Source of the DNA: Hydrogenophaga sp.
Lineage (GTDB): Bacteria > Pseudomonadota > Gammaproteobacteria > Burkholderiales > Burkholderiaceae_C
Direction: 5' to 3'
Length of the DNA stretch: 56,766 bases
Assembly (NCBI GenBank): GCA_030696525.1
Contig: JAUYSB010000251.1
Span: 1-56,766 of the forward strand
Shown: positions 18,173 to 44,168 of the stretch, piece by piece
Layout of the letters: each line of letters begins with the position of its first letter
How positions within the stretch are numbered: position 1 is the stretch's first letter
Program-made: the position numbers and the translations under genes
The notes under the pieces: generated by a model
What the model was told of the DNA's origin: nothing
The model's input: only the letters and a program-made list of their open reading frames with translations
Databases searched by the model: none

Positions 18173-18247
18173 GAGCTGACGCATCAGCATTTACTTCAAC
18201 CCCTGTGGGCCCCTGCGCCCATCGGGTCTGGGGCCCTCTTTTTTTTT
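18173..18247 (+). promoter_or_regulatory. Leader element L1 (candidate attenuator)
   Basis: Hairpin I GCTGA-CGCA-TCAGC (18175-18188), then ATTTACTTCAACCC, then hairpin II TGGGC/GCCCA (18206-18210 with 18217-18221) closed by ACCC/GGGT. A competing stem GGGCCCC/GGGGCCC (18207-18213 with 18230-18236) is followed directly by TCTTTTTTTTT, a strong terminator. The two stems exclude each other. Eleven bases before the 18259 start. Confidence 0.8.
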
Positions 18248-18258
18248 CAAAGAGCCCC

Positions 18259-19050
18259 ATGAACAAAATCGAAACCCTTGGCCTGGACTGGATCAGCGAG
18301 AACCTGACGCAGTTTGTCTCGGCAGATTCCGCCCCGTTCATCTCCTACGTGGCCAAGAACCAGATCGTCAATTCTTCTGGCGTTCGTGTCGACCACAACC
18401 CGTGCACCGGTACCGTTGTTCTGGCGGCCGAGATCCTCAGCATCGTTCTCACGAACGGGGGAGATTTCGTCATCCTCGACAACAAGATCCTGTCTGAGCC
18501 CCTGACGCTTGGCTCCCGCGTGACTGTTACCCCTTACGCACGCCGGCATTTCTCCGGCATTCGTGTGGACCAGTTGCGCGTTGGTGCTGCCAACGATGAG
18601 CCAGAACAGGCTGGCCGCCTTGGCAGCTCCAGCGTTTCGCGCTTGCCGGTTGAAACTCCCACGACGGATGAAGGCAAACACGTGCTGGACTACCTGCACC
18701 GTGCCCGCTGCCCTGATGGCCTGCGCGTCCTGAGCAACCTCCTGGTTGACATTGGCGCAACCAACATGGCTTTCATCGAGTCGAAGGACAAGATGGCGCT
18801 GGTCTTCGACTGCAACAACTCGCTGTTCAACGGCCGAGTCGTTGTCTCAATGGAATACGACATGCAGTCCTTCTGCGTGGAACTGTTCAAGGTCGAGACC
18901 AATGGCACGGAAACCCTGCAGCACAAGCATGAGAACGTCGGCCACGATGACCTCACATCCGTGATGACCCTGTTGCTCTGCGACGGTCGCTGGATGTTGG
19001 CTCAAGTCGAAGTGCACGCCCCCGCCACCGCCACAGCTGAAAAGGAGTAA
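18259..19050 (+). CDS. Hypothetical protein under leader L1
   Basis: 263 residues from MNKIETLGLDWI, 11 bp after the U-tract of leader L1. Soluble; the N-terminal half looks beta-rich (VVLAAEILSIVLTNGGDFVILDNKI), with a helical break near LPVETPTTDEGKHVLDYL. No known domain. First of three closely packed genes (gaps of 4 and minus 14 bp) that end at the terminator 19524-19567. Confidence 0.7.
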   Translation: MNKIETLGLDWISENLTQFVSADSAPFISYVAKNQIVNSSGVRVDHNPCTGTVVLAAEILSIVLTNGGDFVILDNKILSEPLTLGSRVTVTPYARRHFSGIRVDQLRVGAANDEPEQAGRLGSSSVSRLPVETPTTDEGKHVLDYLHRARCPDGLRVLSNLLVDIGATNMAFIESKDKMALVFDCNNSLFNGRVVVSMEYDMQSFCVELFKVETNGTETLQHKHENVGHDDLTSVMTLLLCDGRWMLAQVEVHAPATATAEKE

Positions 19051-19054
19051 TGAG

Positions 19055-19324
19055 ATGGCAGTCGAAAACAAGGAACAGGCTGCCAGCCTGATTGCTCGCG
19101 TGGATGCACTGATCGTCGGTCTGGAAGCTGCTCTGCATCAACCGGAACTGACGAACCAGGTGGCTTCGGCCACGCTGGAGAAGCTGCGCAATGACGCGGC
19201 GATGGCCAACATGCTGTTGACCTCGCTGTCCGAGTCCCTGCAACCCGTGGACGAGTTGGCCAGCGCCAGCGCAAACCCGGTTATTCATCACTCGATTCAG
19301 GAGGTGCAACATGCTGCTCACTAA
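19055..19324 (+). CDS. Small helical protein
   Basis: 89 residues; AAGGAG ribosome site. Alanine-rich and predicted all-helical. Overlaps the next gene by 14 bp. Function unknown. Confidence 0.65.
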   Translation: MAVENKEQAASLIARVDALIVGLEAALHQPELTNQVASATLEKLRNDAAMANMLLTSLSESLQPVDELASASANPVIHHSIQEVQHAAH

Positions 19325-19511
19325 GCAAGAGGTTGTTTCCTACAAGATCGAAAACATGGCCGTGGAAGTCACCTGCAAAACACAATCCGAAGTGGATGCC
19401 GTCAAGGCCTTCGCTCAGGTCAACAACTTCCCCTGCCCTGCGCCCGCAGGCTCCCGCCCGGTTTACAGCACATACGCCAAGACCCACCCAGGCGGTGACG
19501 TCCTCTGGTGA
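19311..19511 (+). CDS. Small hypothetical protein
   Basis: 66 residues; strong AGGAGG ribosome site inside the end of the preceding gene, so likely translationally coupled. No motif recognised. Confidence 0.65.
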   Translation: MLLTKQEVVSYKIENMAVEVTCKTQSEVDAVKAFAQVNNFPCPAPAGSRPVYSTYAKTHPGGDVLW

Positions 19512-19523
19512 CACTCTCCAAAC

Positions 19524-19567
19524 AAAAACCCCTCAGGTGCCCGTTACGGCGGCCCTGGGGGGTTTTT
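19524..19567 (+). terminator. Intrinsic terminator
   Basis: AAAAACCCCTCAGG (from 19524) pairs with CCTGGGGGGTTTTT (to 19567). Ends the 18259-19511 operon. Confidence 0.88.
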
Positions 19568-19611
19568 CTTTGGGGAGTGAGCTGGTGGATGCTGCAGGTA
19601 CTTGGAGAGGC

Positions 19612-20058
19612 CTAGCGCGGCATGCCGGCCGCCGGTGAAGCCTTGTGCAATTCGAGATCGACACCCTTGGTCAGCATCTCCCCAATGTCCATCAGGGCAG
19701 AACGGTCAAAGCGCTTTTCTGCATCGTGGTTTGCCTTGAGCAGCGGTGAAGCCAGGTGCAAACTGCTTCCGCGGATCTGGCACAGGAGCTTTGGCACACC
19801 TGAGGCGTGGAAATGGCCCGTTGCCTCAAGCACCACGCCAGCTTCAATCAGCGCATTGACCCGCTCTGTCTTGGCCTGCTCTGCGAGACGAAGGCGCATG
19901 GGGATCGCCGCAGGATCCTCCAGGTGAGCCAGGACCTTGTCTCGCAACACATGGGTCATTGGATGCGGTGGCAGGCGCCCCAGGTAATCGGCAACCTCTT
20001 CAAGCAGAGCCAGAGACGCTTGATGGCTTGCTGCATCAAATTCTGTATGGATGTTCAT
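19612..20058 (-). CDS. Hypothetical protein
   Basis: 148 residues from MNIHTEFDAASHQ. Helical and soluble (LALLEEVADYLGRLPPHPM...RLAEQAKTERVNALIEAG). No domain recognised. Convergent with the operon ending at 19511. Confidence 0.65.
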   Translation of the reverse strand: MNIHTEFDAASHQASLALLEEVADYLGRLPPHPMTHVLRDKVLAHLEDPAAIPMRLRLAEQAKTERVNALIEAGVVLEATGHFHASGVPKLLCQIRGSSLHLASPLLKANHDAEKRFDRSALMDIGEMLTKGVDLELHKASPAAGMPR

Positions 20059-20085
20059 CACATGGCATGCCCATCTCAAGGGTCG

Positions 20086-20439
20086 TTATTTCAGAAGGGT
20101 GAAAGTTTCGAGAAGAATATGGAATAAACCCCAGCCAATAAATATCCTCCGGCGCGAACTTGGATTTCGCTGACTTTTAAAAAACATAGCAATCGCCAAG
20201 TGAATCAAAGGCAACCCAAATGCCGACCCCATAGCTTCAGGCGCAACGACTCCAAAGAACGGGCCATGCGAGATAATTAGCAAGAATGAGCCTTGGGCCA
20301 CCTCCCCAAACTTATCCATGGCAATTGCATAGTAGGCGATTGCGAAGCTGCAAAACGACACGGCAGCAGCCAATGCGAATGGTGTTTGGCGCTCCACTGA
20401 CTTTTGCTCACTATACTCTTTCACACTCAATTCGTTCAT
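20086..20439 (-). CDS. Membrane protein, AT-richer than its surroundings
   Basis: 117 residues; good AGAGGAA ribosome site. Three hydrophobic segments (ALAAAVSFCSFAIAYYAIAM, SFLLIISHGPFFGVV, LPLIHLAIAMFF) and a basic loop. No family recognised. With the next gene upstream it forms an AT-richer pair, suggesting a separate origin. Confidence 0.7.
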   Translation of the reverse strand: MNELSVKEYSEQKSVERQTPFALAAAVSFCSFAIAYYAIAMDKFGEVAQGSFLLIISHGPFFGVVAPEAMGSAFGLPLIHLAIAMFFKSQRNPSSRRRIFIGWGLFHILLETFTLLK

Positions 20440-20457
20440 GCTTTCCTCTAAAGACTC

Positions 20458-21195
20458 TTATTTCATAAACTTCACACACTCTTCGCACTCCGTTTCAATC
20501 ATATTGTCATTGCTCAACAACAATCGTACAGGCTTCTTTTCAACCTTAAATTTCACAAGCCAGGTGTAATCCTCTTTCAGATCGCCAACTCGACGGCTTG
20601 CAACGGCTGAAGCCACATATTCACCAGGGCGAAGGTCAAAGGTGAAGACTCCGTCAGCATCTGTTTTTTGTGCGTCTATTGCTCCTGAAAATTTCTGAGT
20701 GTATGTTCTTGCCGAAACAATTGCCAACATAGTTTGCAATACTGCTTTGTACGCATCCTCCGCCGCTCTGTATTCATCGTAAGCCGCACTCTTCCTCTCA
20801 AATGCCTTATCTACGGCCCAAGCATTGTTGTGATACTCATTAGGATTGCTTGCATCCCTTTTTAGGATCGCCGCTTTCAAGTCCGATTCACTTTTTGAAA
20901 GCAAATCCTTTTTCTCTTTGAATGCGATTTCAAGCGCCTCTTTTTTGTCCTTCAGTGCAGCCGATGCGATGGAGCTAAACTCAAGCGCAGACTCAATTTG
21001 AGGATTCAGACCCTTTTCCTCATAAACAGAGACTGTGACTAGACCCAACTTGATTGCATTTCCACCTTTAGTCACGACGAATGTTGATCCGCTGACTGGA
21101 ACTGTTCGTGAAGCTTTTGTTGTCGGCTTTTGCTGCGCAAAGGCTGTAGAAGCACACGCGAGGACGACTACAAGTGCGATTTTGGAAGATTTCAC
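20458..21195 (-). CDS. Exported protein with carboxypeptidase-regulatory-like fold
   Basis: 245 residues, GTG start, signal peptide MKSSKIALVVVLACASTAFA. The middle (residues 65-160) is a charged coiled coil; the end has TDADGVFTFDLRPGEYVASA, a beta-sandwich motif common in carboxypeptidase regulatory-like domains that bind surfaces or partners. Two closing cysteines in ECEECVKF. Eighteen bases before the membrane protein gene 20086-20439, so probably one unit. AT-rich codon use. Confidence 0.65.
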   Translation of the reverse strand: MKSSKIALVVVLACASTAFAQQKPTTKASRTVPVSGSTFVVTKGGNAIKLGLVTVSVYEEKGLNPQIESALEFSSIASAALKDKKEALEIAFKEKKDLLSKSESDLKAAILKRDASNPNEYHNNAWAVDKAFERKSAAYDEYRAAEDAYKAVLQTMLAIVSARTYTQKFSGAIDAQKTDADGVFTFDLRPGEYVASAVASRRVGDLKEDYTWLVKFKVEKKPVRLLLSNDNMIETECEECVKFMK

Positions 21196-21270
21196 TGCAA
21201 GAACTGTTGTGTGTTATATGTGATAACGATTCTAATGCCGCATTGGGCATCAAATTACTAGCAGGCATAA

Positions 21271-21308
21271 AAAAACCCGCCTAACCTGAAGAAGGTCGGC
21301 GGGTTTTT
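21271..21308. terminator. Intrinsic terminator
   Basis: AAAAACCCGCC (21271-21281) pairs with GGCGGGTTTTT (21298-21308). It follows the 21324-21818 gene on the minus strand. Confidence 0.88.
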
Positions 21309-21323
21309 CTGGAGGTATCTGTG

Positions 21324-21818
21324 TCAGGCTGCTACAGCCAGAACTTCAACGGTCTTGTACGTACTCAAGCCTTCGACCGTCAGGGCGTCGACATCGATCT
21401 TGACCCAAACGTATTCGCGCTGGGTTGCCCACTGCTTGAGATCCGCAACAGACTTAGGAAGGTCATGGCGGACCATGTGCGTCTCGGGGCTGCCAAAGTA
21501 CAGGAAGCCTCCGAACTGGTTCGTGTAGGCAAGGATGCCGTAACGGTCGAAGAACGAGCCGTCATCCAGCGCTTCGCGCGCCGGCATGCACAGGTGCTCG
21601 ATGGACACGGCCGCAAGGGACTCGTAGCCGTTCTGGCAGGCCTCCAGCAGTTGTTCCTTCATCTCAGCCATCTCACGATCGAGCTCGGCGAGGTGCAGGC
21701 CGGCATGCTGGAGCAGCTTGTCCTTGATTTCGGCCTTTGCGCGAGGCGACAACTCACCCAGCACTTGCAGAAGACGACGGTTGCTGCACAGCAGCGTTGC
21801 GATTTTTTCGATATTCAT
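21324..21818 (-). CDS. Hypothetical protein
   Basis: 164 residues from MNIEKIATLLCSNRR. The N-terminal half is helical (coiled-coil-like DREMAEMKEQLLEAC), the C-terminal half beta-rich. No domain recognised. Single gene ending at a strong terminator. Confidence 0.65.
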   Translation of the reverse strand: MNIEKIATLLCSNRRLLQVLGELSPRAKAEIKDKLLQHAGLHLAELDREMAEMKEQLLEACQNGYESLAAVSIEHLCMPAREALDDGSFFDRYGILAYTNQFGGFLYFGSPETHMVRHDLPKSVADLKQWATQREYVWVKIDVDALTVEGLSTYKTVEVLAVAA

Positions 21819-22284
21819 TTTCGGAAAAGGATAGTGCGCGACCATGACAAAGGCCTGGCCGATTGCGCTGCCGAGGCGAGAGCGCTCAGCGGATTGGGTG
21901 GAGTCACCGTTGCAGACCCATAAAAGGCCTGCGCGTGGTGTTGCAGGAGAACCCTGCTTGAGAAAATGCTGATGAAGTCAGCTCTTTGCGGAAAGCACTG
22001 GAATTTTATTGGGCACAGGGTCAAAACAGCCTGTACCACTCCCTACTGAACACACAGCAAAACGGTTTTGCTTGTCCGTTTTCTCTCTCGGATTCACGGA
22101 TCATCGCATCAAATCCGATTTGCACTATCCGTCTGCTCAAACTGCGTCGCCCCCTGCTTTGATGGGTTTGCCGACCGGTTTAGTAGCCGGTTTTGACTTG
22201 AGCGGCTGAAAGCGGCGCTAGGCATCCGCACCACCTTGGTCCGGGTTCGGACATAGACTCGGCGCTGTCGGCGTGTTCACATTC
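21819..22284. other. Divergent intergenic region holding palindrome P3
   Basis: 466 bp with no credible gene between the 21324-21818 gene and the XRE regulator. Palindrome P3 is at 22056-22072. Nothing else was recognised. Confidence 0.5.
22056..22072. repeat. Dispersed palindrome copy P3
   Basis: AGCAAAACGGTTTTGCT, a perfect 8-1-8 palindrome in the region upstream of an XRE-type regulator gene. Confidence 0.85.
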
Positions 22285-22782
22285 ATGAAACAAGGACTTG
22301 TCTTGTCAAATTCTTCAAAGCTCTTCGTACTGCGCGATGGGGTTGGTGAGCGCATCAGGGAGGCGAGAACAAGCGTTGGTCTGAAGCAAAAGGACCTTGC
22401 TCCTCTGGGCGGTATCGCAAGAGCAACGCAAATCAGCTATGAGTCCGGAACAACCTCGCCCACGACAGACTACCTACAGAAAGTGCAGACGGTCGGGCTG
22501 GATGTTCCGTTCGTACTTTTTGGGCACCTGTCAGAGGAGTTGGAGAATAGATTTACCCCTTCTGGGAATGTCGACTGGGAGACAATCAAGGAAGCGTTTG
22601 AACATGTTGATTTTTTTTGTCTTCGCGTTGCGCCCCAACTTCCCCCTCGATTCAAGTGGCAGTTGGTTTCTCACCTCTATCGGTACCTCCAGTCTCGGTC
22701 ATTGATGCCTGGCGCCAAGGTATCTGACAAAGAGGTACTCGATCAGATTTCAACGAAGTGGAACAGCATGGCCAGTGGCTGA
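22285..22782 (+). CDS. XRE-family helix-turn-helix regulator
   Basis: 165 residues from the ATG at 22285; a GTG at 22273 is an alternative. A Cro/C1-type HTH covers residues 20-75 (GERIREARTSVGLKQKDLAPLGGIARATQISYESGTTSPTTDYL is the pattern region). The C-terminal 90 residues are unassigned. Probably binds DNA as a dimer. A palindrome lies about 210 bp upstream, which makes it one candidate reader of the dispersed palindromes, but nothing proves this. Confidence 0.8.
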   Translation: MKQGLVLSNSSKLFVLRDGVGERIREARTSVGLKQKDLAPLGGIARATQISYESGTTSPTTDYLQKVQTVGLDVPFVLFGHLSEELENRFTPSGNVDWETIKEAFEHVDFFCLRVAPQLPPRFKWQLVSHLYRYLQSRSLMPGAKVSDKEVLDQISTKWNSMASG

Positions 22783-22835
22783 AGAGTGCATGCATTTCGG
22801 CTTTGTGAGCACGGTGTACGTTCGGCCAAAAAATA

Positions 22836-22877
22836 AACCGCCCTGCCCCATAGGGGAGCGATGCCACGGGCGGCTTT
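22836..22877. terminator. Intrinsic terminator, stronger on the minus strand
   Basis: AACCGCCC (22836-22843) pairs with GGGCGG (22868-22873). The A-rich run before it gives a U-tract on the minus strand. A vestigial minus-strand frame ends at 22914. Confidence 0.65.
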
Positions 22878-22994
22878 GCCACTCCCGCCTGATCAGCGGA
22901 CGATGTCCGCGACTTAGGCCACGATCTGGAGACCTTCACCAGCTCTCAACCCATCAATTGCGGGCAGCAGGGCCACATGGGCATCGGTCAGCTG

Positions 22995-23011
22995 AGCAAA
23001 ACTGGTTTGCG
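22995..23011. repeat. Dispersed palindrome copy P4
   Basis: AGCAAAACTGGTTTGCG, close to the terminator at 23038. Confidence 0.75.
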
Positions 23012-23037
23012 TGTGCCGGATAGGACGATGAGGGCAA

Positions 23038-23078
23038 AAAAAAACCCGCCCTGCCCCTTGCTGGGGAGAGCGGGTCTT
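23038..23078 (-). terminator. Intrinsic terminator of the 23099-23311 gene
   Basis: ACCCGC (23044-23049) pairs with GCGGGT (23070-23075), with an inner CCCC/GGGG stem and a nine-base A run that becomes the U-tract on the minus strand. Similar in sequence to the terminator at 22836. Confidence 0.8.
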
Positions 23079-23098
23079 GTACCAGGACGGAGATCCAA

Positions 23099-23311
23099 TC
23101 ACGCAGCCAATGCTGGAGCGTTCCCGGACGAAGCCATCAAGCTGCGCACGCTGTTGAGAATTGCTTCTCCACGGGGCGAACGGAGTGCAACGATGCGATG
23201 CCGAGTGCTCGGCAGCATGTTGAACCAGCTTGCATCTTCGAGCGGGACACCCGCCGCCGCAAGGACGGAGGGTGCAAGAGGATCCTGGATGTCTTTGGCG
23301 ATGGTTTGCAT
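23099..23311 (-). CDS. Small hypothetical protein
   Basis: 70 residues; AGGAG ribosome site before the ATG and a terminator directly downstream make it credible despite its size. No motif recognised. Longer overlapping frames on both strands lack these signals. Confidence 0.65.
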   Translation of the reverse strand: MQTIAKDIQDPLAPSVLAAAGVPLEDASWFNMLPSTRHRIVALRSPRGEAILNSVRSLMASSGNAPALAA

Positions 23312-23806: not shown

Positions 23807-23815
23807 TGTGGATAA
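23807..23815 (-). other. Consensus DnaA box
   Basis: TGTGGATAA here, which is TTATCCACA on the minus strand, the exact DnaA consensus. One isolated copy. Confidence 0.6.
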
Positions 23816-23905
23816 CTTTGGCTTCGCAAGCCTAGCCTGGACCTGAAGCCCAATAGATATGCGGGGTCCATTGGGTTGCCTATATTTTGAGCAGCAAGTA
23901 GTGAT

Positions 23906-23922
23906 CGCAAAACGGTTTTGCG
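23906..23922. repeat. Dispersed palindrome copy P5
   Basis: CGCAAAACGGTTTTGCG, a perfect 8-1-8 palindrome, about 90 bp from the DnaA box. Confidence 0.85.
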
Positions 23923-24039
23923 GATGGGGGGCATGTCGGGTCACTTGAAGGGCAGCAGTCCTAAAATCCCTCCAACTGCATTTGCCGTTCGAGCTGCCGC
24001 GCAGCAGATTGCCTCCCTGCATCTAAGCCCAGTGCTTGA

Positions 24040-24118: not shown

Positions 24119-24193
24119 ATGAACAAACAACACGCGCTGCCCTGCCCTCGCACTCTTGGTTTCTGGAGCCTGGAGGTCGACCATGGGGCGTGA
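24119..24193 (+). CDS. Possible 24-residue leader peptide
   Basis: Short frame MNKQHALPCPRTLGFWSLEV... that starts 18 bp after leader L2 and stops at a TGA 11 bases inside the start of the PP-loop gene. The overlap would allow translational coupling. It has no obvious ribosome site, so it may not be translated. Confidence 0.35.
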   Translation: MNKQHALPCPRTLGFWSLEVDHGA

Positions 24194-25241
24194 CCTTGAC
24201 ATCTTCGAAGGCATGTCCGAGGCCAGCGAAGCTACTGAGCGGCTCGTTGGCGACTTTGAAATGCCCAACCAGTTCATACCGAACCTGGATGAGTACAGTC
24301 GGATAGTTTTGTTCCACTCTGGTGGCAAAGACTCAATGAGTTGCATGCTCTACCTTTTGGAATTGGGCATACCAGCTCACCGGATTGAACTTCATCACCA
24401 CGAGGTCGACGGCGAGAACCCTGAGCATCTGATGGACTACCCGTCCACCCACAACTACATGGAGAAGGTTGCCGAGGCCTTCGGCATGCCACTGTATTTC
24501 TCGTTCCGCGTTGGTGGATTCGAGAGAGAAATGCTGCGTGAAAACAGCGGTACTGCACCGATCACATTCACACGTGGCGATGGCACTGTGGTGACCATGG
24601 GTGGAGAGCGTTCAAAGCAAAGCACTCGACGGAAATTTCCACAGGTAACTGCCGATCTTCGAACGCGTTGGTGCTCTGGGGTACTGAAGATTGATGTAGG
24701 TTCGCGCCTGCTCATCAACGATCCGCGCTTCACGGACGGAAAGACCTTGGTCATTTCTGGAGAGCGCGCCGAAGAGAGTACAAACCGCGCTCGCTACAGT
24801 GAGTTTGAGCCTCATCGAGCTGACAACAGAGACGGTCGAGTTCCTCGCTGGATTGATCACTGGCGCCCCGTGCACAAGTGGACTGAGCGGCAAGTTTGGC
24901 AACTCATCAAGAAGTGGAAGGTGACGCCTCATGCGGCGTACTGGATAGGCGCAGGCCGCGCCAGTTGCCTCCTTTGCATCTTCGGATCGAGCAACCAATG
25001 GGCAACGGTTCGCATGATTGCTCCTGAGCAGTTCATGCGTGTTGCCAACTATGAGACGGAGTTTGGTTACACCATTCACCGCTCGCTTTCTGTCATTGAG
25101 CAAGCTGACCGTGGTGAGCCCTTTGAGGCCGCTCTTCGCTGGAAGCACCTCGCAATGTCAAAGACTTTCGACATGCCGATCTTCACGGAGAACTGGATTC
25201 TTCCAGCAGGCGCGTTCGGTGAGTCTTGTGGACCATCCTGA
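24183..25241 (+). CDS. PAPS reductase-like PP-loop ATPase/sulfurtransferase family protein
   Basis: 352 residues from MGRDLDIFEGMSEAS, with GGAGG before the ATG. The PP-loop is LFHSGGKDSMSC (near residue 50), the ATP-pyrophosphatase signature of the PAPS reductase/DndC family. Cysteines in RWCSGVLKI and in RASCLLCIFGSSNQW resemble the metal- or cluster-binding pairs of phage and plasmid members. It may activate a nucleotide or sulphur compound; the substrate is unknown, and there are no dnd genes nearby for DNA phosphorothioation. Controlled by leader L2; ends at terminator 25311-25338. Confidence 0.8.
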   Translation: MGRDLDIFEGMSEASEATERLVGDFEMPNQFIPNLDEYSRIVLFHSGGKDSMSCMLYLLELGIPAHRIELHHHEVDGENPEHLMDYPSTHNYMEKVAEAFGMPLYFSFRVGGFEREMLRENSGTAPITFTRGDGTVVTMGGERSKQSTRRKFPQVTADLRTRWCSGVLKIDVGSRLLINDPRFTDGKTLVISGERAEESTNRARYSEFEPHRADNRDGRVPRWIDHWRPVHKWTERQVWQLIKKWKVTPHAAYWIGAGRASCLLCIFGSSNQWATVRMIAPEQFMRVANYETEFGYTIHRSLSVIEQADRGEPFEAALRWKHLAMSKTFDMPIFTENWILPAGAFGESCGPS

Positions 25242-31667: not shown

Positions 31668-31690
31668 AACCGTCAGGGTTGAAATGAGTT
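31668..31690 (-). repeat. Remnant of a leader element
   Basis: On the minus strand CTCATTTCAACCCTGACGG matches the link and first arm of L3/L4 hairpin II, then the similarity stops and no GCCC arm follows. It lies upstream of the toxin-antitoxin pair, which has its own promoter. Confidence 0.5.
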
Positions 31691-31749: not shown

Positions 31750-32325
31750 TCAAAGTTTTTTGACGGTGAAGTCGTCCAGAACTTCGGAGCCAAGCTTTTT
31801 GAGTTCGGCCCTGATCTGTCTTTTGGTGGGCTCGCCACGGCAGTTGATTTCCACACAGCGGTCATCACCCGCAGTGGGGTGAACCAATGCGATCACGACG
31901 TGAGTGAATCCTTCCTTCTTAGCCTTGGCAAACCGCTTCTCTGCTGCAGCTTCTTCCTTGGCCTGTTTGGCGTCCAGTTCCTTGCGCAGATCGCCCATGA
32001 AGCACTTCTCGCAAAGCCCGTCACGGGTGGGGCGCTCGTTCGAGGGAGCGAATGCCGGCGCGTTGCACCGTTGGCACTCACAGACTTTGACGAGATCGAG
32101 CAACGCTCGCATCGCACTCTCTGTGGCCGTTTGGTACGTCACATTGGAGGTTGGATCAGAGACGATCAAGTGCCCCCCGTTTTCCAACTTGACGGTGAGC
32201 TGCAACGGATAACCGTTGTTCATCCACACACAGGGCGACATTTCTGCCTCGAGCGTGGCCGAACCAATTTGCTTGGTCAGCTTGAGCTTGCGCAAATGGT
32301 ACTGAGGATCATTTTCTTGGGTCAT
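31750..32325 (-). CDS. Hypothetical zinc-ribbon protein under leader L5
   Basis: 191 residues. Cysteines in CECQRCNAPAF and CEKCFMG (residues 82-110) form a likely zinc ribbon, followed by an alanine/lysine-rich helix and a C-terminal alpha/beta segment. No family recognised. Nineteen bases after leader L5. Confidence 0.68.
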   Translation of the reverse strand: MTQENDPQYHLRKLKLTKQIGSATLEAEMSPCVWMNNGYPLQLTVKLENGGHLIVSDPTSNVTYQTATESAMRALLDLVKVCECQRCNAPAFAPSNERPTRDGLCEKCFMGDLRKELDAKQAKEEAAAEKRFAKAKKEGFTHVVIALVHPTAGDDRCVEINCRGEPTKRQIRAELKKLGSEVLDDFTVKKL

Positions 32326-34696: not shown

Positions 34697-34767
34697 ACCC
34701 CACGCAAACCAAACCCAGCGGGCATGGCCCGCATGGGAAGTGTGTAGATGCTGCACGGCAGCTCGAT
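34697..34767 (-). promoter_or_regulatory. Leader element L7
   Basis: Canonical GATCGAGCTGC-CGT-GCAGCAT hairpin I, then CTACACACTTCCC, hairpin II GCGGGC/GCCCGC closed by CCC/GGG. Competing stem CCATGC with GCGTGG (+ 34722-34727 and 34700-34705), followed by GGTTTCTC. Twenty-four bases before the 34672 start. Confidence 0.78.
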
Positions 34768-35023
34768 CGCCAAGATGGCAGATGTCCCGATTGTAGGTCA
34801 CGGCCGGCGGCTTGGCCTCGCACCTGCTCCCATGTCCTGGCGCGTTCCGTACGCCCGACTTTCTACGTGGAAAGTCGTGGAAAGCTCACGCTCAACGCCC
34901 TACCTGGCTCCGGGAAACTCCTCTGATTTCTTGATTCATAACTTTATTCATTAAAATCGAGGCATCCACCGTAATTCTCATGTAAAAGCTCTGCCAAGCC
35001 GCGATCCAAACTCTATTCATAAG
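34768..35023 (+). other. AT-rich promoter region of the HipA-like gene
   Basis: No gene. TTGATT (34931-34936) and TAAAAT (34952-34957) could be a promoter pair, though with a short 15-bp spacer. No leader element. Confidence 0.4.
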
Positions 35024-36400: not shown

Positions 36401-36490
36401 GGCCCGCGTAGGGCCAACAAGGGGATGGCGCGGCAGAAGTAGGTGACGGGAACGCATAAAATCTAGCCATCCCACGGCCTTGGCCTGGAT

Positions 36491-36574
36491 CGAGCTGCCG
36501 TAGCAGCATTTACCTCAACCCACACGGGCACACCTCAATGCCCGGATGGGTTTGTCGTGTGCCTGTTTTCTTTT
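36491..36574 (+). promoter_or_regulatory. Leader element L8 (candidate attenuator)
   Basis: Canonical hairpin I GCTGC-CGTA-GCAGC (36494-36507), ATTTACCTCAACCC, hairpin II CGGGC/GCCCG (36525-36529 with 36540-36544) closed by AACCCA/TGGGTT. Competing stem GGCACAC (36527-36533) with GTGTGCC (36557-36563) followed by TGTTTTCTTTT. Eight bases before the 36582 start. Confidence 0.8.
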
Positions 36575-38398: not shown

Positions 38399-38430
38399 AG
38401 AGCAAGTGCATCGTAGGAAGCACTTGCTCT
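38399..38430. repeat. Long inverted repeat B
   Basis: Arms AGAGCAAGTG and CACTTGCTCT (10 bp, perfect) with a 12-bp spacer, the same arms and spacer length as 12273-12306. It lies 35 bp upstream of leader L9. Confidence 0.8.
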
Positions 38431-38465
38431 TGTAAACTGCCCACATCGTTGTGTTTATCGCACGG

Positions 38466-38545
38466 TCGAGCTGACGCTTCAGCATATTCTCTTTACAACC
38501 CTCGGGGCCCAACAAAGCCCTTCGGGGACGTTGTGTTCCGTTCCC
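38466..38545 (+). promoter_or_regulatory. Leader element L9
   Basis: Hairpin I GCTGA-CGCT-TCAGC (38470-38483) in TCGAGCTGACG context, ATATTCTCTTTACAACCC, hairpin II GGGC/GCCC closed by CCC/GGG. A competing stem (CCAAC with GTTG(TG), 38509-38513 and 38530-38533) is weak here. Thirteen bases before the 38559 start. Confidence 0.72.
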
Positions 38546-38558
38546 TTCAAGGTGAACC

Positions 38559-39146
38559 ATGTTTCTCGAAAACTCGCACGCCTCCATTGGCGGCAAAACC
38601 ATTTCGTCCTTCAATCCTGCTGCAGTGCCTGAACTGGCAAACACCGGTCATGCCGAATTTCGGCCGACGCTGCGCATGGTGACATTGCGCGATTCGATCG
38701 TTGCCTTGCAGAATCGCATTGCAGAAATCACGCCGATGGTCCTGGCCGTGCAGATGAAAGTGTTGAGCGCTGGGCGCTGGGTTTCATCGGAGCCCCTGTC
38801 CCGCGATGATCGCTCCCGTGTGGTGCTGGTCCCTGAACACACGCACATGCTCAGCGATGAAGATCGCCGGGCGTACCAAATGGGATGCATCGCAAGCTAC
38901 AAGGCGCTCAGACTGCCCGTGAATGAACGCGGTGACTGCCCGCTGCTGGTGATGAAACGCCGCTTGCATGAACTGGAAAACGACTTCTTCTCAGCGATGA
39001 GCGGCGTGGCCAAGCTCAGCGCCGTTGGCGCACACGGCTTGCCCCCGAAGTTCCGTTCCGAGTACCTGCAGCGCTGCATGGACATGATCGAGAAGGCCCT
39101 GCGCGCCCCGCACGCTTCGCCCCTCTCCTTCGCCGTCAGCAACTAA
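38559..39146 (+). CDS. Hypothetical protein under leader L9
   Basis: 195 residues; ribosome site AAGGTG. Helical; no domain recognised. Ten bases before the next gene, so a two-gene operon ending at terminator 39563-39604. Confidence 0.7.
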   Translation: MFLENSHASIGGKTISSFNPAAVPELANTGHAEFRPTLRMVTLRDSIVALQNRIAEITPMVLAVQMKVLSAGRWVSSEPLSRDDRSRVVLVPEHTHMLSDEDRRAYQMGCIASYKALRLPVNERGDCPLLVMKRRLHELENDFFSAMSGVAKLSAVGAHGLPPKFRSEYLQRCMDMIEKALRAPHASPLSFAVSN

Positions 39147-39156
39147 GGACAAGACC

Positions 39157-39528
39157 ATGAACTTTCTGATCGCCGTCGAAGTCCCCGCCAAAGGCCCAAT
39201 GGAACTCCTGGTGCACGAAGTGCAACAGGCCTACGACAACGGTGCATTCGGCAACTTCCAGTGCATCGTGACCCATCAGCCTTCGTACATCGTGCTCTTC
39301 GAACGCACCGCGGCCGAAGGCGACTGGGGCTACCTGCAAGACCACATGCGCCAGCGCTCCATCGACATCCAACGTGCTGCCCAGCTGCAGCTTGCAGTTG
39401 AGTTGATGGAAGGCCTGGACCGTGACAACCAGACTTACCTGCCCACCATCATCGAGACCCTCAAAGAATTCGACGCCCAAGTCGTTGACTTCATTGGCGT
39501 CCTGAAGGGCGAAATGGTCGCTGCCTGA
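39157..39528 (+). CDS. Hypothetical protein
   Basis: 123 residues; GGACAAGACC before the ATG. Mixed alpha/beta, acidic C-terminus. Co-transcribed with the preceding gene. Function unknown. Confidence 0.68.
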   Translation: MNFLIAVEVPAKGPMELLVHEVQQAYDNGAFGNFQCIVTHQPSYIVLFERTAAEGDWGYLQDHMRQRSIDIQRAAQLQLAVELMEGLDRDNQTYLPTIIETLKEFDAQVVDFIGVLKGEMVAA

Positions 39529-39562
39529 CCTCGCGCCGCCTTCGGGTGGCTTTGCAAAACAG

Positions 39563-39604
39563 AACGCCTGGCGCCCTCTACGGAGGGCCCAGGCGTTTTT
39601 TTTG
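39563..39604 (+). terminator. Intrinsic terminator
   Basis: AACGCCTGG (39563-39571) pairs with CCAGGCGTT (39589-39597), with an inner CCCTC/GAGGG stem, followed by TTTTTTT. Confidence 0.9.
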
Positions 39605-39617
39605 GCTTCAGGCGTGA

Positions 39618-40328
39618 TCAGCGCACAACCGGTGCAGGCTGAGCGCTCGTTGCATTGGATTCCTTGAGGACGTCTTGAGCAGGCTTCTCAGGGGTTGAAG
39701 TAGCCGCCGGCTTCTGCTCTCTGACGCTTGGGTCAACCTTGTCAGCGACAGGCGAGGTGTTTTTCCTAGGTGTTTTGCTACCCAGGAGGTCCAACTGCCC
39801 GAAAACAAAGGGCGTTCCGTCATCGCCACGGCAAGCAATGAATGACTCGACGTATTCAGGGCGCGGTTCTTTGGTCATCCACAGTATCCGAAGATTGTGC
39901 TTCGTACAGACCGGACTCGTTTTGGAGTGGAAGCCCACGGCCACCTCCATCTGAACATCCTTGCGTTGTGCAAACGCGCCTGTCATTTCGTAGTGCGATT
40001 CGACCAACAACTGCTGTATCACTGGGGCTAGTTCAAGGCCGCAAACTGGATCTGAGAACGCCTTGCCAGCTTCATGATTGCTGTTCGCAGCACTGGCCAG
40101 GACTGTAAAGGGCAACAAGATGGGTATGAGTCCGCCAACAACACCAAGTCCAACAGCAGCGCCTGTCCCCGCCCCTTGCATCTTCTTCACAGATGAAAAA
40201 GCGTAGCAACCCTTTTCATTTGAACTGGCAAGCAGTTTGGCACCTTGTACCCTGTCAAGAGATTGGACCGCACAACCGGAAAAAACAGATACTGCAAGCG
40301 CAGCGGCTACCACCTTCTTGATCGTCAT
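39618..40328 (-). CDS. Lipoprotein of unknown function
   Basis: 236 residues from MTIKKVVAAALAVSVFSGCAV: signal peptide with lipobox SGC, so a lipid-anchored envelope protein. One hydrophobic glycine-rich stretch (GAGTGAAVGLGVVGGLIPILLPFTVLA) may insert in the membrane. Pro/Lys/Thr-rich tail. No family recognised. Confidence 0.78.
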   Translation of the reverse strand: MTIKKVVAAALAVSVFSGCAVQSLDRVQGAKLLASSNEKGCYAFSSVKKMQGAGTGAAVGLGVVGGLIPILLPFTVLASAANSNHEAGKAFSDPVCGLELAPVIQQLLVESHYEMTGAFAQRKDVQMEVAVGFHSKTSPVCTKHNLRILWMTKEPRPEYVESFIACRGDDGTPFVFGQLDLLGSKTPRKNTSPVADKVDPSVREQKPAATSTPEKPAQDVLKESNATSAQPAPVVR

Positions 40329-40401
40329 CAGTCTCAACTGTGTTGCTTGAAAGCCGGCGATTCTATGGTCCAAATCACATCATTTTGACTCTGCGTGGCC
40401 G

Positions 40402-40440
40402 AAAAAAAAGCCCCCTCGAACCTGATGGCATCGAGCGGGC
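40402..40440 (-). terminator. Intrinsic terminator of the 40464-41369 gene
   Basis: On the minus strand GCCCGCTCGA pairs with TCGAGGGGGC and is followed by eight U. Confidence 0.83.
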
Positions 40441-40463
40441 ATGTGTTGGTGATTACAAATGGT

Positions 40464-41369
40464 TCAAGACGAACGTTCCGCATTGCTCAAGAGCAGGAAC
40501 TGGGCATCGTTGCCGGCTGCCATTGGCATCTCGACATCACCGTAAAAGTGGGTGGCGGTCTCAAAATCGCCCCAACCATCACAGTTACTCCAGAACCCAT
40601 CCTCGCTCGCGGCGTAGATGACCACAGGCTCAAGCGGTGTCCCCTTGAGTGCGGCGCACACATCAACGTAGCACTGGGCAAGCTTCTCAACAGCATCTCC
40701 GCCGTTGATTTCGCTTGCAGCTCCGAAGCCCAAGCCGCTCATGTCGACCAGGAGTTGCTTCAGGAGTGCCGCGTAATCGACTTGCCTAATTGGCTCAGCA
40801 GCATCCCCAAGACAGACTGCACAGGAGTGTTTCTGTTTCAGCGGGATGGCCACGGCGCTTTCGCCAAGACAAATGACGCCGGACGGTGCTTCTGCAACTG
40901 GTGCGCGGTGGGGAACGCCGTCAGAGTAGGCAGCAAGAACAGAGGACGAAGCCTCCAACCATGCCATCTCGACGGAGTCCTGAACCGTTCCACCCGCCGC
41001 GGACTCAGCGTGGTTCCAGTACCAGCCAGTGCCGGTCGGCGTACTGACTGGCCAGATAGTGAAGCCTCGAAGTCCAAGCCCCTTAGGGTCCATCACGACG
41101 GGCGTGAAGGGTGATCCTATTTGCGCTAGGGCGTCGACCGTATCCAGCCTGTGTGTGGAGTCGGCAATGACGTCAGAGGCCATGCCCATGGCCGCGGCAA
41201 AAGCGTCGCCCAGGCCTTCGGCTTCGAAGAACTCGACCAGCTTCCCCTCGGCATCAGCGAGCATCAGAACGCGAAGCACTTCAGCCATGGCCACAAAGGG
41301 CGAAGGCAGCGCTTCATGTTGATTCACCAACGCTATGTTGGAGTGGTGTTGAGTGGTTTGATCTTGCAT
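40464..41369 (-). CDS. Hypothetical protein under leader L10
   Basis: 301 residues. Helical N-terminus, a CAVCLGDA pair of cysteines near residue 183, no diagnostic motif. Single gene between leader L10 and a strong terminator. Confidence 0.68.
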   Translation of the reverse strand: MQDQTTQHHSNIALVNQHEALPSPFVAMAEVLRVLMLADAEGKLVEFFEAEGLGDAFAAAMGMASDVIADSTHRLDTVDALAQIGSPFTPVVMDPKGLGLRGFTIWPVSTPTGTGWYWNHAESAAGGTVQDSVEMAWLEASSSVLAAYSDGVPHRAPVAEAPSGVICLGESAVAIPLKQKHSCAVCLGDAAEPIRQVDYAALLKQLLVDMSGLGFGAASEINGGDAVEKLAQCYVDVCAALKGTPLEPVVIYAASEDGFWSNCDGWGDFETATHFYGDVEMPMAAGNDAQFLLLSNAERSS

Positions 41370-41385
41370 ATTCGTTGAATGGAAT

Positions 41386-41456
41386 GCAAGAACGCAAGTG
41401 GCCCCAAGGGCGTTGCGCCCCTGCGGGTTGTGAAAATGCTGCTTCGGCAGCTCGAT
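41386..41456 (-). promoter_or_regulatory. Leader element L10
   Basis: Canonical GATCGAGCTGC-CGAA-GCAGCAT hairpin I, TTTCACAACCC, hairpin II GGGC/GCCC closed by ACCC/GGGG. Competing stems CGCAA/TTGCG or AACGC/GCGTT, then TTCTTGC. Seventeen bases before the 41369 start. Confidence 0.77.
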
Positions 41457-41506
41457 CCTTTTGGATGAGCCTGATTTTACTCAGGGTACCCATGAGGGAC
41501 GATCTG

Positions 41507-42475
41507 CTACGCAGCCAAACGGTGGAAGTTATCGTTGGCGTGCTTGCCCATTACCCGGGTTGCGGCCGACTCCATCCACCTGGTCATTTCATCGGATCGA
41601 TGCTTGAAGCTGTTCGATCGCCCTTCCTTGAACGCACGAACCCGCGCGCCGTAGTCGTAGGCCATCGAGTCCACACTGGCAATCCATGGCAGCTTCTTGA
41701 CCTCGTTGAGTGCTGTTCCCTTCACGCCAAACAAATGGACTTTGCTGCCATTGGGAATCTGCCTGTCGAGACCGTTCAGGATGGCATAAAGCCCATGTTC
41801 AGGATGACTGGTCGTACGCCGACACACAGAACCCAAGCCAATGAGCTTGGGTGGTGCCAACCACGGCTGCCAGCGCTCCCAGACCTGCATGGTCAGCTCC
41901 AGGCTGTCTAGGTACTGCTCCGTTGTCCAACCTTGGATGATCGGTACCGGAGGCTTGATGAGATCCTCGACCACCGTGCTATTGCACGACTTGGCCAACT
42001 CGTTTTGCCAGTCGTAGATGATCCTCAGGCATCCCTCAAGGAGGGTCGCTGTGATGTCGATTCGCTCCCGGATGACGCCTGGGTCACCGGCAGACAGTTC
42101 CGGCTCCACACACAGATCAGGTGCCGACCACCACGAAGGACGCAGCAAAGCGGCAGTCTCAATGTATTGGTGGTAGCTCCACGGGTAGACACCTGCCATA
42201 CCGGCTTGCTTTCCCTTGGCCTGGAAGCCCCGGATCGCGGTGAAGCCGGCGCTGTCAAGCGCGAAGTCCAGCTCAAAGAGGTCGCTGGCTTCTGGGATCG
42301 AAAACACCCGCTTAGCGGGGTTCCAGAATGCCGAAGCAGAGACCATCGCCGGGTACCCATGGTTGAAGGCATGAAAGGCAAGTTGCCCGCCTCGATGCGG
42401 TATCCCAATGCGGACCTGAAGCCCTTCATCGAGGTGTGCATTCTGTTGCCCAATGGGCATGTTTTTGCGATGCAT
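41507..42475 (-). CDS. DpdA/tRNA-guanine transglycosylase-like protein
   Basis: 322 residues. FALDSAGFTAI corresponds to the DSGGF motif with the first catalytic Asp of TGT enzymes; GWTTEQYLDSLELTMQVWERW, LIGLGSVCRRT, HLFGVKGTALNEV and VDSMAYDYGAR match the barrel of TGT-like proteins, including DpdA, which inserts 7-deazaguanines into DNA. No C-terminal zinc-binding part typical of tRNA enzymes is visible. Either a DNA-modifying DpdA relative or a decoy fold; no queuosine-pathway gene is present here. The start is uncertain (Met1 or Met6). Leader L11 precedes it. Confidence 0.72.
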   Translation of the reverse strand: MHRKNMPIGQQNAHLDEGLQVRIGIPHRGGQLAFHAFNHGYPAMVSASAFWNPAKRVFSIPEASDLFELDFALDSAGFTAIRGFQAKGKQAGMAGVYPWSYHQYIETAALLRPSWWSAPDLCVEPELSAGDPGVIRERIDITATLLEGCLRIIYDWQNELAKSCNSTVVEDLIKPPVPIIQGWTTEQYLDSLELTMQVWERWQPWLAPPKLIGLGSVCRRTTSHPEHGLYAILNGLDRQIPNGSKVHLFGVKGTALNEVKKLPWIASVDSMAYDYGARVRAFKEGRSNSFKHRSDEMTRWMESAATRVMGKHANDNFHRLAA

Positions 42476-42487
42476 GGTTTGAAATGG

Positions 42488-42540
42488 AAGCCAGGCACCA
42501 CACCCATCGGGCAGCTGATGCCCGGTGAGGGTTGAAGTGA
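42488..42540 (-). promoter_or_regulatory. Leader element L11
   Basis: CACTTCAACCC, hairpin II CGGGC/GCCCG closed by ACCC/GGGT; competing stem GGGCATCA with TGGTGCCT (+ 42516-42523 and 42493-42500, with G-U pairs). No hairpin I: the preceding gene ends at 42542. Thirteen bases before the 42475 start. Confidence 0.68.
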
Positions 42541-42541
42541 G

Positions 42542-43099
42542 TTATCGGCTGACGGCGTGGAAGCAGGAAGCGCAAACAGGGCGGTACCTGTTGTCACCAC
42601 CGATCTCCACCTCAGGACCGCTTCGCACTGGATGGCCCAATGCGTCGATTCGCTGATTGAGCGTGGCCTTGGAGCCGCACTGGCACAGCGTGGAGAGCTC
42701 ATGCAGGTTGTCTGCAATCGCCATCAGTGCCGCCGAACCCTCAAAGGGCAAGCCCTGGAAAGTCGAACGAAGTCCGAAACACGAAACACGTTGCCCGCGG
42801 GCGCAGAAGTTTTCGTGGATCTGACGGACCTGCGCACCGGTTAGGAACTGTGCCTCATCGAGTATCAGTTCAGCTACATCGCCGAGGTCCAGTGTGCTGT
42901 CAAACACGGTGTCTCTGGAGTAGAGAACAGCGTCACACTGTGGCCCCATGCGGGAAGTGATCTTCCCGATGCCAAAACGGTCATCGAGCGCGCTCGTCAT
43001 CACCAGTACGCGCTTGCCAATCGAAGTCAGGTTGTGCCGGCGCTGCAGGAGCGCAGTGCTCTTCCCGCCCGACATGGTCGAGTAGTAGAAATCAAGCAT
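42542..43099 (-). CDS. tdk: Thymidine kinase
   Basis: 185 residues from MLDFYYSTMSGGKSTALLQ; ribosome site AAGG. P-loop STMSGGKST, Walker B-like LILDEAQFL, and two cysteine pairs (CQCG and CASC) for the structural zinc place it in the type II thymidine kinases, which make dTMP from thymidine. It could raise the plasmid host's dTTP supply. Its stop lies two bases before leader L11 of the TGT-like gene, so the two may be partly co-transcribed. Confidence 0.92.
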   Translation of the reverse strand: MLDFYYSTMSGGKSTALLQRRHNLTSIGKRVLVMTSALDDRFGIGKITSRMGPQCDAVLYSRDTVFDSTLDLGDVAELILDEAQFLTGAQVRQIHENFCARGQRVSCFGLRSTFQGLPFEGSAALMAIADNLHELSTLCQCGSKATLNQRIDALGHPVRSGPEVEIGGDNRYRPVCASCFHAVSR

Positions 43100-43160
43100 T
43101 TGGAAATACCTTGGTTGGGGAGTATCAGACCAGATCAACGCAGCTCAATTGGAGAGCGTG

Positions 43161-43226
43161 ACGTGGTTGCACCCGCAAGGGCTGGTGCCCCTGATGAGTT
43201 GAAAAGGATGCTGCTGTCGGCAGCTC
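43161..43226 (-). promoter_or_regulatory. Leader element L12
   Basis: Canonical GATCGAGCTGC-CGACA-GCAGCAT hairpin I, CCTTTTCAACTC, hairpin II GGGC/GCCC. Competing stem GCACC/GGTGC (+ 43184-43188 and 43169-43173). About 62 bp before the tdk start, the longest distance in the family. Confidence 0.73.
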
Positions 43227-43351
43227 GATCCAGAGTGGATAGCTCGAATTTTAAAGCGGGGCAATCTGGAAACTGCCCCACTCATCCTCAGGTCAACCTC
43301 TCCGCACCTCTCAGATGTGGGTAGTCGTTCTAAGCTCTCCGAATCTGAGCG

Positions 43352-43398
43352 AAAAGCCCCGGCAAAACCGGTTTGCGATGGAATTCAGGGGCTGTTTT
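43352..43398. terminator. Terminator with palindrome P7 in its loop
   Basis: AAAAGCCCC (43352-43360) pairs with GGGGCT (43388-43393), then GTTTT. Palindrome P7 fills the loop. Second of two terminators after the 43493-44098 gene. Confidence 0.72.
43361..43377. repeat. Dispersed palindrome copy P7
   Basis: GGCAAAACCGGTTTGCG, inside a terminator loop. Confidence 0.78.
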
Positions 43399-43418
43399 AT
43401 TGGCACGTCCCAAAGCAA

Positions 43419-43463
43419 AAAACCCCGCAAAACTGGTTTGCACCGGATTGCGGGGTTTGTTTT
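43419..43463. terminator. Terminator overlapping palindrome P8
   Basis: AACCCCGCAA (43421-43430) pairs with TTGCGGGGTT (43448-43457), flanked by A and T runs. It shares bases with palindrome P8. Confidence 0.82.
43426..43442. repeat. Dispersed palindrome copy P8
   Basis: CGCAAAACTGGTTTGCA; its first five bases are part of the terminator stem. Confidence 0.78.
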
Positions 43464-43492
43464 TGAGTCTCCCCAGGGTTGGGGTTTGAAGG

Positions 43493-44098
43493 TCAGCCTG
43501 CTTCGACAGCCTGCATGCGCTCGCGCATTTCAGTGACGAATGCCGCAGGCTCCATCAGGCCGTAACGCGCCAAACGCACAGGAATGTCCTCGAGGGACAG
43601 TTCAGCGTTCTCGATGCGGTCGAGCATGAAAGACGACAACTCTTCCTCGCTCAAAGGTTCAGGCACTTCCAGAATTTCCAGAGAGTAGCCGTCAACTTCA
43701 GCTTCGGTGTGTCCTGTCAGCATCCCGTTGCCAATGGCGTTCATGCACATTTTGTGCAGGAGGCCCTTGAGGGTTTCGGCATCAACTCCGAATGGGACGT
43801 AGTTGATGTCCAAAACGAGGCGCATGTTCAGTGGCGCACGGGCGTTGGGATCAACTGTATTGATCTCATCGGCCCAGACTTCCATCTGGGAACCTGCTTC
43901 GTTGGTCACCTCGAAGATCGTGTCGTCAAAGACGCGCACACCTTCTTTGCGAATGTTCAAGATGGTGACCTCGCCGGAAGACAGGCCATCGTCAGGATCA
44001 GTCCACCAGACCTTATCACCAGCTTTGAGGCTTTCCAGCCAGGCTTGGTGGTCGATGCCTTCGGGGGACTTGGGAATGGAGGTGTTCGTGTTGCTCAT
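43493..44098 (-). CDS. Hypothetical protein under leader L13
   Basis: 201 residues. N-terminal DKVWWTDPDDGLSSGEVTILNI resembles a small SH3-like barrel; the C-terminal half is helical and acidic. No family assigned. Ends at a double terminator. Confidence 0.7.
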   Translation of the reverse strand: MSNTNTSIPKSPEGIDHQAWLESLKAGDKVWWTDPDDGLSSGEVTILNIRKEGVRVFDDTIFEVTNEAGSQMEVWADEINTVDPNARAPLNMRLVLDINYVPFGVDAETLKGLLHKMCMNAIGNGMLTGHTEAEVDGYSLEILEVPEPLSEEELSSFMLDRIENAELSLEDIPVRLARYGLMEPAAFVTEMRERMQAVEAG

Positions 44099-44115
44099 GG
44101 GGTGTTCCAGTTGGT

Positions 44116-44168
44116 TTTAAAGGGCCCCACCCCATACGGGCAGGACCGCATGGGTTGAAAATTTGCTT
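44116..44168 (-). promoter_or_regulatory. Leader element L13
   Basis: AAGCAAATTTTCAACCC, hairpin II CGG/CCG closed by ACCCAT/ATGGGGT; competing stem GGTCC/GGGCC followed by CTTTAAAA. No clear hairpin I. Eighteen bases before the 44098 start. Confidence 0.66.

Follow-up and report, generated by a model that had tools for sequence, protein, structure and literature searches.

A four-segment leader platform, predicted to switch translation, is repeated before unrelated genes on a plasmid-like Hydrogenophaga contig and follows radC RNAs

The window analysed here is the whole 56,766-nucleotide contig JAUYSB010000251.1 of a Hydrogenophaga sp. (assembly GCA_030696525.1; contig C282 of a 309-contig, 3.97 Mb source genome). 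An initial annotation had described thirteen structured leader elements between 18173 and 44168 of this window, each directly upstream of a gene. We found that the core of an element is a link (UCAACCC or UCCACCC) followed by four segments, and that the complementarity between segments 1 and 3 and between segments 3 and 4 is specific to the individual element. The position of the elements before start codons, their distribution over mobile elements and their connection with the radC RNA motif (RF01754) were likewise established computationally. We consider it likely that each element acts as a two-state switch of translation in an mRNA leader.

Element-specific alternative pairings

Segment 1 was taken as the 5' arm and loop of a hairpin named P2, segment 3 was sought in the 28 bases after the GGGT that closes P2, and segment 4 was the stretch around the start codon with any Shine-Dalgarno sequence. 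In a set of 22 elements, comprising the 13 of the window and 9 of the 11 matches from other plasmids and genome contigs (L008:353-402 was dropped as unconvincing and L018:257-300 as a wrong-strand echo), segment 1 paired with its own segment 3 at a mean of -16.0 kcal/mol, against -10.3 kcal/mol for permuted partners, a difference reached in 0 of 100,000 permutations. The excess was equally present when the test was confined to the 13 window elements (0 of 100,000), and own-partner pairing of segments 3 and 4 was reached in 0 of 50,000 permutations (21 elements; L020a, for which no start codon was identified, was omitted).

A larger set of 60 matches was chosen by a rule without segments 3 and 4 from the window, another contig of the source genome (C261), contigs bearing radC RNA, and three plasmids, namely the conjugative Hydrogenophaga plasmid pPBL-H3_B2-1 (NZ_CP044976.1, label W05), Polaromonas JS666 plasmid 2 (W02) and a Piscinibacter plasmid (W06). 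Removal of duplicates with the same segment 1 had reduced 68 matches to these 60; three wrong-strand echoes were kept at this stage and later removed, leaving 57. In the 60 matches, the 1:3 and 3:4 pairings were each reached in 0 of 20,000 permutations, and the negative controls gave no signal (2:3, 12,017 of 20,000; 1:4, 10,948 of 20,000). By group, the 1:3 excess was reached in 171 of 20,000 permutations in W06 (5 matches) and in 0 of 20,000 in the window, in W05 and in the integrative and conjugative elements (ICEs), where the permutations are not fully independent because related ICE copies remain in the set. The corresponding counts for 3:4 were 17 in the window, 0 in W05, 0 in the ICEs, 31 in W02 and 471 in W06. 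The leaders of the window and of W05 precede different genes. With the echoes removed (n = 57), the P2 arm alone deviated against segment 3 with z = -10.9, and the P2 loop with z = -4.2 (50 elements with loops of at least 4). The initial suggestion that a third segment can re-pair with the P2 hairpin is therefore strongly supported for the set, though not for element 43161, and for element 44116 the 1:3 pairing is weak.

Start-codon accessibility and the proposed switch

Energies were calculated for 65 matches, which included ICE relatives and from which wrong-strand echoes had been removed. The closed state (1:2 with 3:4) was more stable than the open state by a mean of 4.7 kcal/mol (standard deviation 4.4) and was the more stable fold in 54 of the 65. 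The unpaired share of the start region from -14 to +3 was 41% in the closed state and 61% in the open one; the 1:3 state left the region more open in 53 of 65 matches and equally open in 3. The geometry of 55 of 57 elements allows the CCC of segment 2 and the conserved GGG to pair in the open state, so that the GGG has two possible partners and the link is free. Since the two pairings are mutually exclusive and one of them covers the start, the elements are predicted to behave as translational on/off switches.

In the mechanism that we propose, segments 1 and 2 would form P2 in the closed state, closed by ACCC:GGGU, and segment 3, left over, would bind segment 4, masking the start codon together with any Shine-Dalgarno sequence. 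In the open state, segment 1 and the P2 loop would pair with segment 3, releasing segment 4 and the UCAACCC link, while the CCC of segment 2 could take up the conserved GGG. The default is probably off, given that P2 is the first to form and that the closed state is in most cases the more stable one; the gene would presumably be turned on by a factor, envisaged as a shared trans-acting signal, that opens P2 or binds to the link once it is free. The upstream domain varies: radC RNA in some integrating elements, a CGAGCUG-CGNN-CAGCAU hairpin in the window plasmid, or little beyond a short hairpin inside operons. Translational riboswitch platforms and four-segment attenuators similarly use mutually exclusive pairings to hide or free a ribosome-binding site; here, however, one platform is repeated before many unrelated genes of one mobile element and behind differing upstream domains.

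Two competing folds with a sequestered start would also suit an RNA thermometer, in which P2 or the 3:4 hairpin would melt on warming, so that the start becomes accessible. However, a thermometer of the plain type needs only the 3:4 pairing and leaves the element-specific 1:3 partner and the conserved link unexplained, and we regard it as quite improbable.

Several results weigh against the two-state switch. Some members of the 22-element set had been inspected visually before testing. The Polaromonas plasmid alone gave no 1:3 excess (1111 of 20,000; 7 matches), element 43161 lacked 1:3 support, with 292 of 300 shuffles pairing equally well or better, and L020a also failed. A reversed-arm control deviated as well, though much less (z = -3.2), so part of the signal reflects composition shared within an element, but most of it does not. 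The open 1:3 state was the more stable in 11 of 65 matches, and the start region was less open in that state in 9 of 65. One of the five chance matches found in 400 kb of chromosome (see below) also had strong 1:3 pairing. Finally, a plasmid-borne ProQ/FinO protein, sought as a trigger, was not found on W05, W02 or W06.

Inventory and architecture of the elements

All thirteen elements were found at or near the coordinates first given and on the strands first given, and 13 of 13 lie on the strand of the next gene, just before its start. The set extends beyond the range 18173-44168, with two elements added at 9460 and 12083 (both on the minus strand), whose own 1:3 pairings each rank 1 of 57. 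The elements are listed below by position and strand.

9460 (-): added element, link, P2 and segments 3/4 at 9395..9464, first base of start codon 9395
12083 (-): added element, link, P2 and segments 3/4 at 12017..12087, first base of start codon 12017
18173 (+): P1 hairpin, variant, 18169..18190 (by sequence and pattern); link and P2 (segments 1 and 2) 18192..18227; segments 3 and 4 to start codon ATG 18259, 18228..18261
24040 (+): P1-like hairpin, far from the element, 23990..24007 (by sequence); link and P2 24050..24086; segments 3/4 reach ATG 24119
29698 (-): link and P2 29711..29742; start codon 29680
30833 (-): link and P2 30842..30874; start codon 30812
32345 (-): link and P2 32354..32387; start codon 32325
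33932 (-): link and P2 33941..33979; start codon 33910
34697 (-): P1 hairpin, canonical, 34748..34768; link and P2 34713..34745; start codon 34672
36491 (+): P1 hairpin, canonical, 36488..36509; link and P2 36511..36551; start codon 36582
38466 (+): P1 hairpin, variant, 38464..38485 (by sequence and pattern); link and P2 38491..38527; start codon 38559
41386 (-): P1 hairpin, canonical, 41436..41457; link and P2 41402..41435; start codon 41369
42488 (-): link and P2 42502..42539; start codon 42475 of the DpdA-like gene
43161 (-): P1 hairpin, canonical, 43208..43230; link and P2 43171..43205; thymidine kinase gene, start 43138; 1:3 unsupported
44116 (-): link and P2 44129..44161; start codon 44098; 1:3 weak

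The ATG at 24119 opens a 24-codon open reading frame that overlaps the start of the PP-loop gene at 24183, and the start codon at 32325 lies within the predicted downstream hairpin of segments 3/4. Two further leader elements were found in contig C261 (L110:6722 and L111:5964), which are probably on the same replicon as the window. A TCAACCC site at 31682 (-) has a weak, degenerate platform-like hairpin and was excluded from the count.

The link ends in ACCC in the window elements, with TCCC or ACTC in single cases. In 60 mobile-element matches, for which 1:3 pairing and the GGG were demanded, its consensus was T-C-(A/C)-A-C-C, the four bases before CC having been left open, and CA(A/C)CC occurred in 29 of 60 mobile-element links compared with 0 of 7 chromosome matches. 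The CA of the link falls outside both alternative pairings and may thus be read by a trans-acting partner. The closing strand of P2 is GGGT, or GGGG or GGGC in some elements, and its outer arm pairs covary (GTGGGC/GCCCAT, ACGGGC/GCCCGT, GCGGGC/GCCCGC, TCGGGC/GCCCGA). Covariation of the arms had already been noted in the initial annotation; covariation of pairing was present across the elements and in relatives. Plain MAFFT alignment misplaced the hairpin arms and hand-padded rows were used instead; pair counts from this alignment lean towards structure and were therefore not relied upon.

The P1 hairpin, CGAGCTGX-CGNN-XCAGCA(T), lies upstream of seven window elements; its closing pair is C-G, A-U or G-C (window, L020, L042, L111). 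Six canonical copies and three variants had been reported, whereas the exact count is four canonical copies and three clear variants (18169, 23990 and 38464). The other window elements have a different upstream hairpin or none. Boxes resembling a -10 element, with at least 5 of 6 matches to TATAAT, were present 5' of P1 in 6 of 12 cases (a count made with no shuffled control), which suggests that P1 opens the transcript. Compared with shuffled folding, the 50 bases 5' of the link gave a mean z of -1.34 (36 of 57 below -1), and the region 100 bases further up gave -0.43 (18 of 57 below -1). A long palindrome (AGAGCAAGTG...CACTTGCTCT) is present in two window copies, 12274-12305 and 38399-38430, the latter just 5' of the presumed promoter of element 38466, where it is a possible operator.

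Four window elements start 6-30 nt past the end of a co-oriented frame and lack the canonical P1. As some links lie 5-50 nt past an upstream stop codon, a terminating ribosome could disturb P2, and coupling of the erm-attenuator type, to a ribosome that translates the preceding gene or a leader peptide, was considered. Promoter-proximal copies, however, have no such frame nearby, and no frame is conserved: any ATG or GTG frame across segment 1 was found in 29 of 57 elements, and in none of the 9 window elements tested did such a frame carry a Shine-Dalgarno-like sequence. Such coupling is improbable in our judgement.

As palindromic hairpins in multiple copies on mobile elements, the sequences might instead act as palindromes at the DNA level, serving as repressor operators or forming structures in single-stranded plasmid DNA, or they might be a spreading repeat with no regulatory role. 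The uniform strand of the 13 elements argues against this, as do the 19 of 21 rule-based matches on W05 that point to an annotated gene, the start codon placed 24-56 nt after the closing GG of P2, and the specificity of the 1:3 and 3:4 pairings, which 2:3 and 1:4 do not share. We hold this explanation to be very improbable indeed and retain the two-state translation switch. CsrA sites, intrinsic terminators and operators were rejected or ranked low by eye.

Detection of the elements and controls

A covariance model of the hairpin recovered 13 of 13 window elements at E <= 0.16, a search that is not independent because the model was built from the hand-padded alignment of the same 13 elements; it also reported wrong-strand echoes of the palindromic hairpins. 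A stricter descriptor required the link, P2 and, further downstream, an ATG frame at least 40 codons long, with a start at 18-61 nt after the closing GG allowed and segments 3 and 4 ignored. It gave 12 matches in the window, whereas 20 dinucleotide shuffles of the window gave 0.15 on average. These 12 were seven listed elements, the two added ones and three wrong-strand echoes; the descriptor failed on 6 of 13 (24040, 32345, 34697, 38466, 43161 and 44116). With the matches in one dinucleotide shuffle given in brackets, the counts were 12 (0) in the window, 1 (0) in C261, 21 (1) in W05, 7 (1) in W02, 5 (0) in W06, 22 (0) in the radC-bearing contigs, 2 (3) in 43 unrelated genome loci, 0 (0) in L005, 0 (1) in L007 and 1 (1) in L008. 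In 400 kb of same-genus chromosome, 5 matches were found. Scanning the window under relaxed conditions yielded 34 sites, compared with 19.2 on average over 5 shuffles, and was rejected as too unspecific.

The hairpin model (R1) had matches in 2 of 100 genomes of relatives, the source genome included, the model being too short, and in 2 of 8 plasmids and genomes under strict filters. A genome-wide search with the P1 pattern hit 45 contigs, mostly one conserved Microbacterium stretch, and by eye only L020 and L042 were real. The family-wide pattern matched 10 of 399 genomes, and judged from the matched strings only the source genome and G281 were real. In viral contigs, the exact P1 pattern had no match and a looser pattern had one, judged to be chance.

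The initial annotation had named an Rfam comparison as a check. At gathering scores, no family matched in the window, including radC, STAXI and traJ-II; at E <= 5, five weak matches appeared in 18000-45500, all far under the family gathering scores. STAXI and traJ-II are RNA motifs in mobile-element settings, STAXI lying near DNA-handling genes and being described as tandem pseudoknots in the part of Weinberg 2010 consulted (PMC2864571). The window differs in that neither family scores there.

The platform on other mobile elements

On W05, 17 of 21 predicted start codons coincide exactly with annotated gene starts, 2 are in frame within 12 nt (85124/85130 and 310685/310697), and 2 are not gene starts (76015 and 191314). 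The genes at the 17 exact starts include PRTRC ParB, E and F, a DUF3150 gene, a DEAD/DEAH helicase and a methyltransferase. The platform is a module common to related plasmids and integrating elements. That the downstream genes are unrelated holds for those that can be identified. Together with strand and position, covariation and element-specific pairing, this supports the initial view of a plasmid-wide control module over that of a metabolite switch for one pathway.

Two side observations were made on other plasmid sequences. In L005 (Methylibium RPME01 259231-300181), many genes have a different short leader, a plasmid-wide family with a hairpin such as GGCGCAATTCCGCGCC just 5' of the Shine-Dalgarno sequence and ATCACC or ATCCCC before the hairpin. 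On Polaromonas JS666 plasmid 2, a HEARO RNA lies beside an iscB gene (L006:38967-39210, -).

Connection with radC RNA

The hairpin model match in genome G002 sits 12 nt past a 121-bit radC RNA. The radC RNA model itself had no match of at least 40 bits in the window and none at E <= 5 in 18000-45500, and radC RNA was not found in the source genome in a search with stricter filters. Among 147 relatives, radC occurred in 8, of which 7 were above the cut-off, with 1 to 9 matches each, and 30 of the 32 matches were examined. In 24 of these 30 loci, the link, P2, segments 3 and 4 and then the start codon follow radC (descriptor with relaxed link), and four more are alike by eye (L066, L070, L074 and L082); no platform was found at L086 or at L072, which is below the Rfam cut-off. 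In 17 of the 24, the platform link begins 4-22 nt past the 3' end of the Rfam radC model; the remaining 7 show an overlap between the last part of the Rfam match and the platform (offset -31 to -35). For 16 unique radC platforms alone, 1:3 and 3:4 were each reached in 0 of 20,000 permutations. The gene after one radC platform belongs to the STY4534 family of ICE replication proteins (DUF3577).

Like the window elements, radC RNA is multicopy on contigs of the same order and precedes unrelated genes, but its 149-position domain is absent from the window. The four-segment platform is common to both and lies outside Rfam's definition of radC. Within one contig (G040:C11), the platform occurs behind radC at 120244, 122578 and 124217, and without an Rfam radC match at 121021, 121569, 125649 and 129724, 16-45 nt after an upstream frame. 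The window leaders therefore share the apparent expression platform of radC, not its upstream domain, and radC is one upstream domain that a more general platform may have or lack, since the platform occurs behind radC and without it, even in one contig. These features, that segments 3 and 4 would sequester the start and that the module corresponds to the downstream part of Rfam radC RNAs, were added here to the initial annotation.

In the part of Weinberg 2010 consulted (PMC2864571), radC is given as certainly an RNA and probably cis-regulatory, with its riboswitch status open (table row: RNA Y, cis-regulatory y, switch ?); radC RNA is also named by accession in PMC7657543. The phrases "radC RNA" and "radC motif" were not found in the literature searched, and titles and abstract beginnings on radC or mobile-element leaders did not describe the platform, supplements and subscription papers being outside this scope. 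As the platform follows an RNA whose riboswitch status was so left open, and P1 is a conserved hairpin close to the presumed 5' end, a small ligand might be bound by P1 or by the radC domain and reported by the four-segment platform. However, at only about 22 nt and with a stem of 5 bp, P1 as found in the window is small for an aptamer, and no conserved domain of aptamer size was seen in the window. Moreover, the four elements close behind co-oriented frames do without the canonical P1, and the identifiable downstream genes are unrelated, though most have no family. A metabolite riboswitch is accordingly rather unlikely in our view, and the two-state platform with varying upstream domains is preferred.

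Genomic setting of the window

Window genes include dnaN-like, PAPS-reductase-like, DpdA-like, DUF1173, bactofilin, CoiA-like, thermonuclease-like and IS21 genes. Several of these kinds also occur on pPBL-H3_B2-1, and the nearest relatives of the DpdA-like gene (the best four in a plasmid collection, at about 60-64% identity) are on Burkholderiales and Rhodocyclales plasmids, so we interpret this plasmid-like Burkholderiales contig as a putative plasmid fragment. The DpdA-like protein matches 86 plasmid records. Palindromes resembling GCAAAACCGGTTTTGC occur four times in the window (10589, 22053, 22992 and 43358) and are a candidate plasmid operator; similar sites are present in L110, after 5431 of contig C261. 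Genes referred to above, and two neighbouring groups noted in passing, are as follows.

24183-25241 (+): PP-loop/PAPS-reductase-like gene
41507-42475 (-): DpdA-like gene
49263-50063: FRG-domain gene adjoining the ResIII/methyltransferase genes
50440-54829 (-): ResIII-domain and N6/N4 methyltransferase genes

Implications

The radC RNA is a regulatory candidate that lacks a known mechanism. Finding the platform by itself on plasmids without radC disentangles input from output, so that small reporters could test the mechanism directly. It is conceivable, though doubtful, that the elements form a translational regulon, in which one bistable platform carries interchangeable upstream domains as element-specific inputs and one trans-acting signal flips many genes. 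If this were true, the regulon would span dozens of maintenance, replication and transfer-region genes on plasmids and integrating elements of the Burkholderiales, with the orphan radC RNA as one of its sensors rather than a stand-alone motif. The findings hint that translation is controlled across a whole element for backbone genes of plasmids and ICEs, among them PRTRC genes, an ICE replication-protein family, a helicase and a methyltransferase; this would be a layer of regulation invisible to gene annotation.

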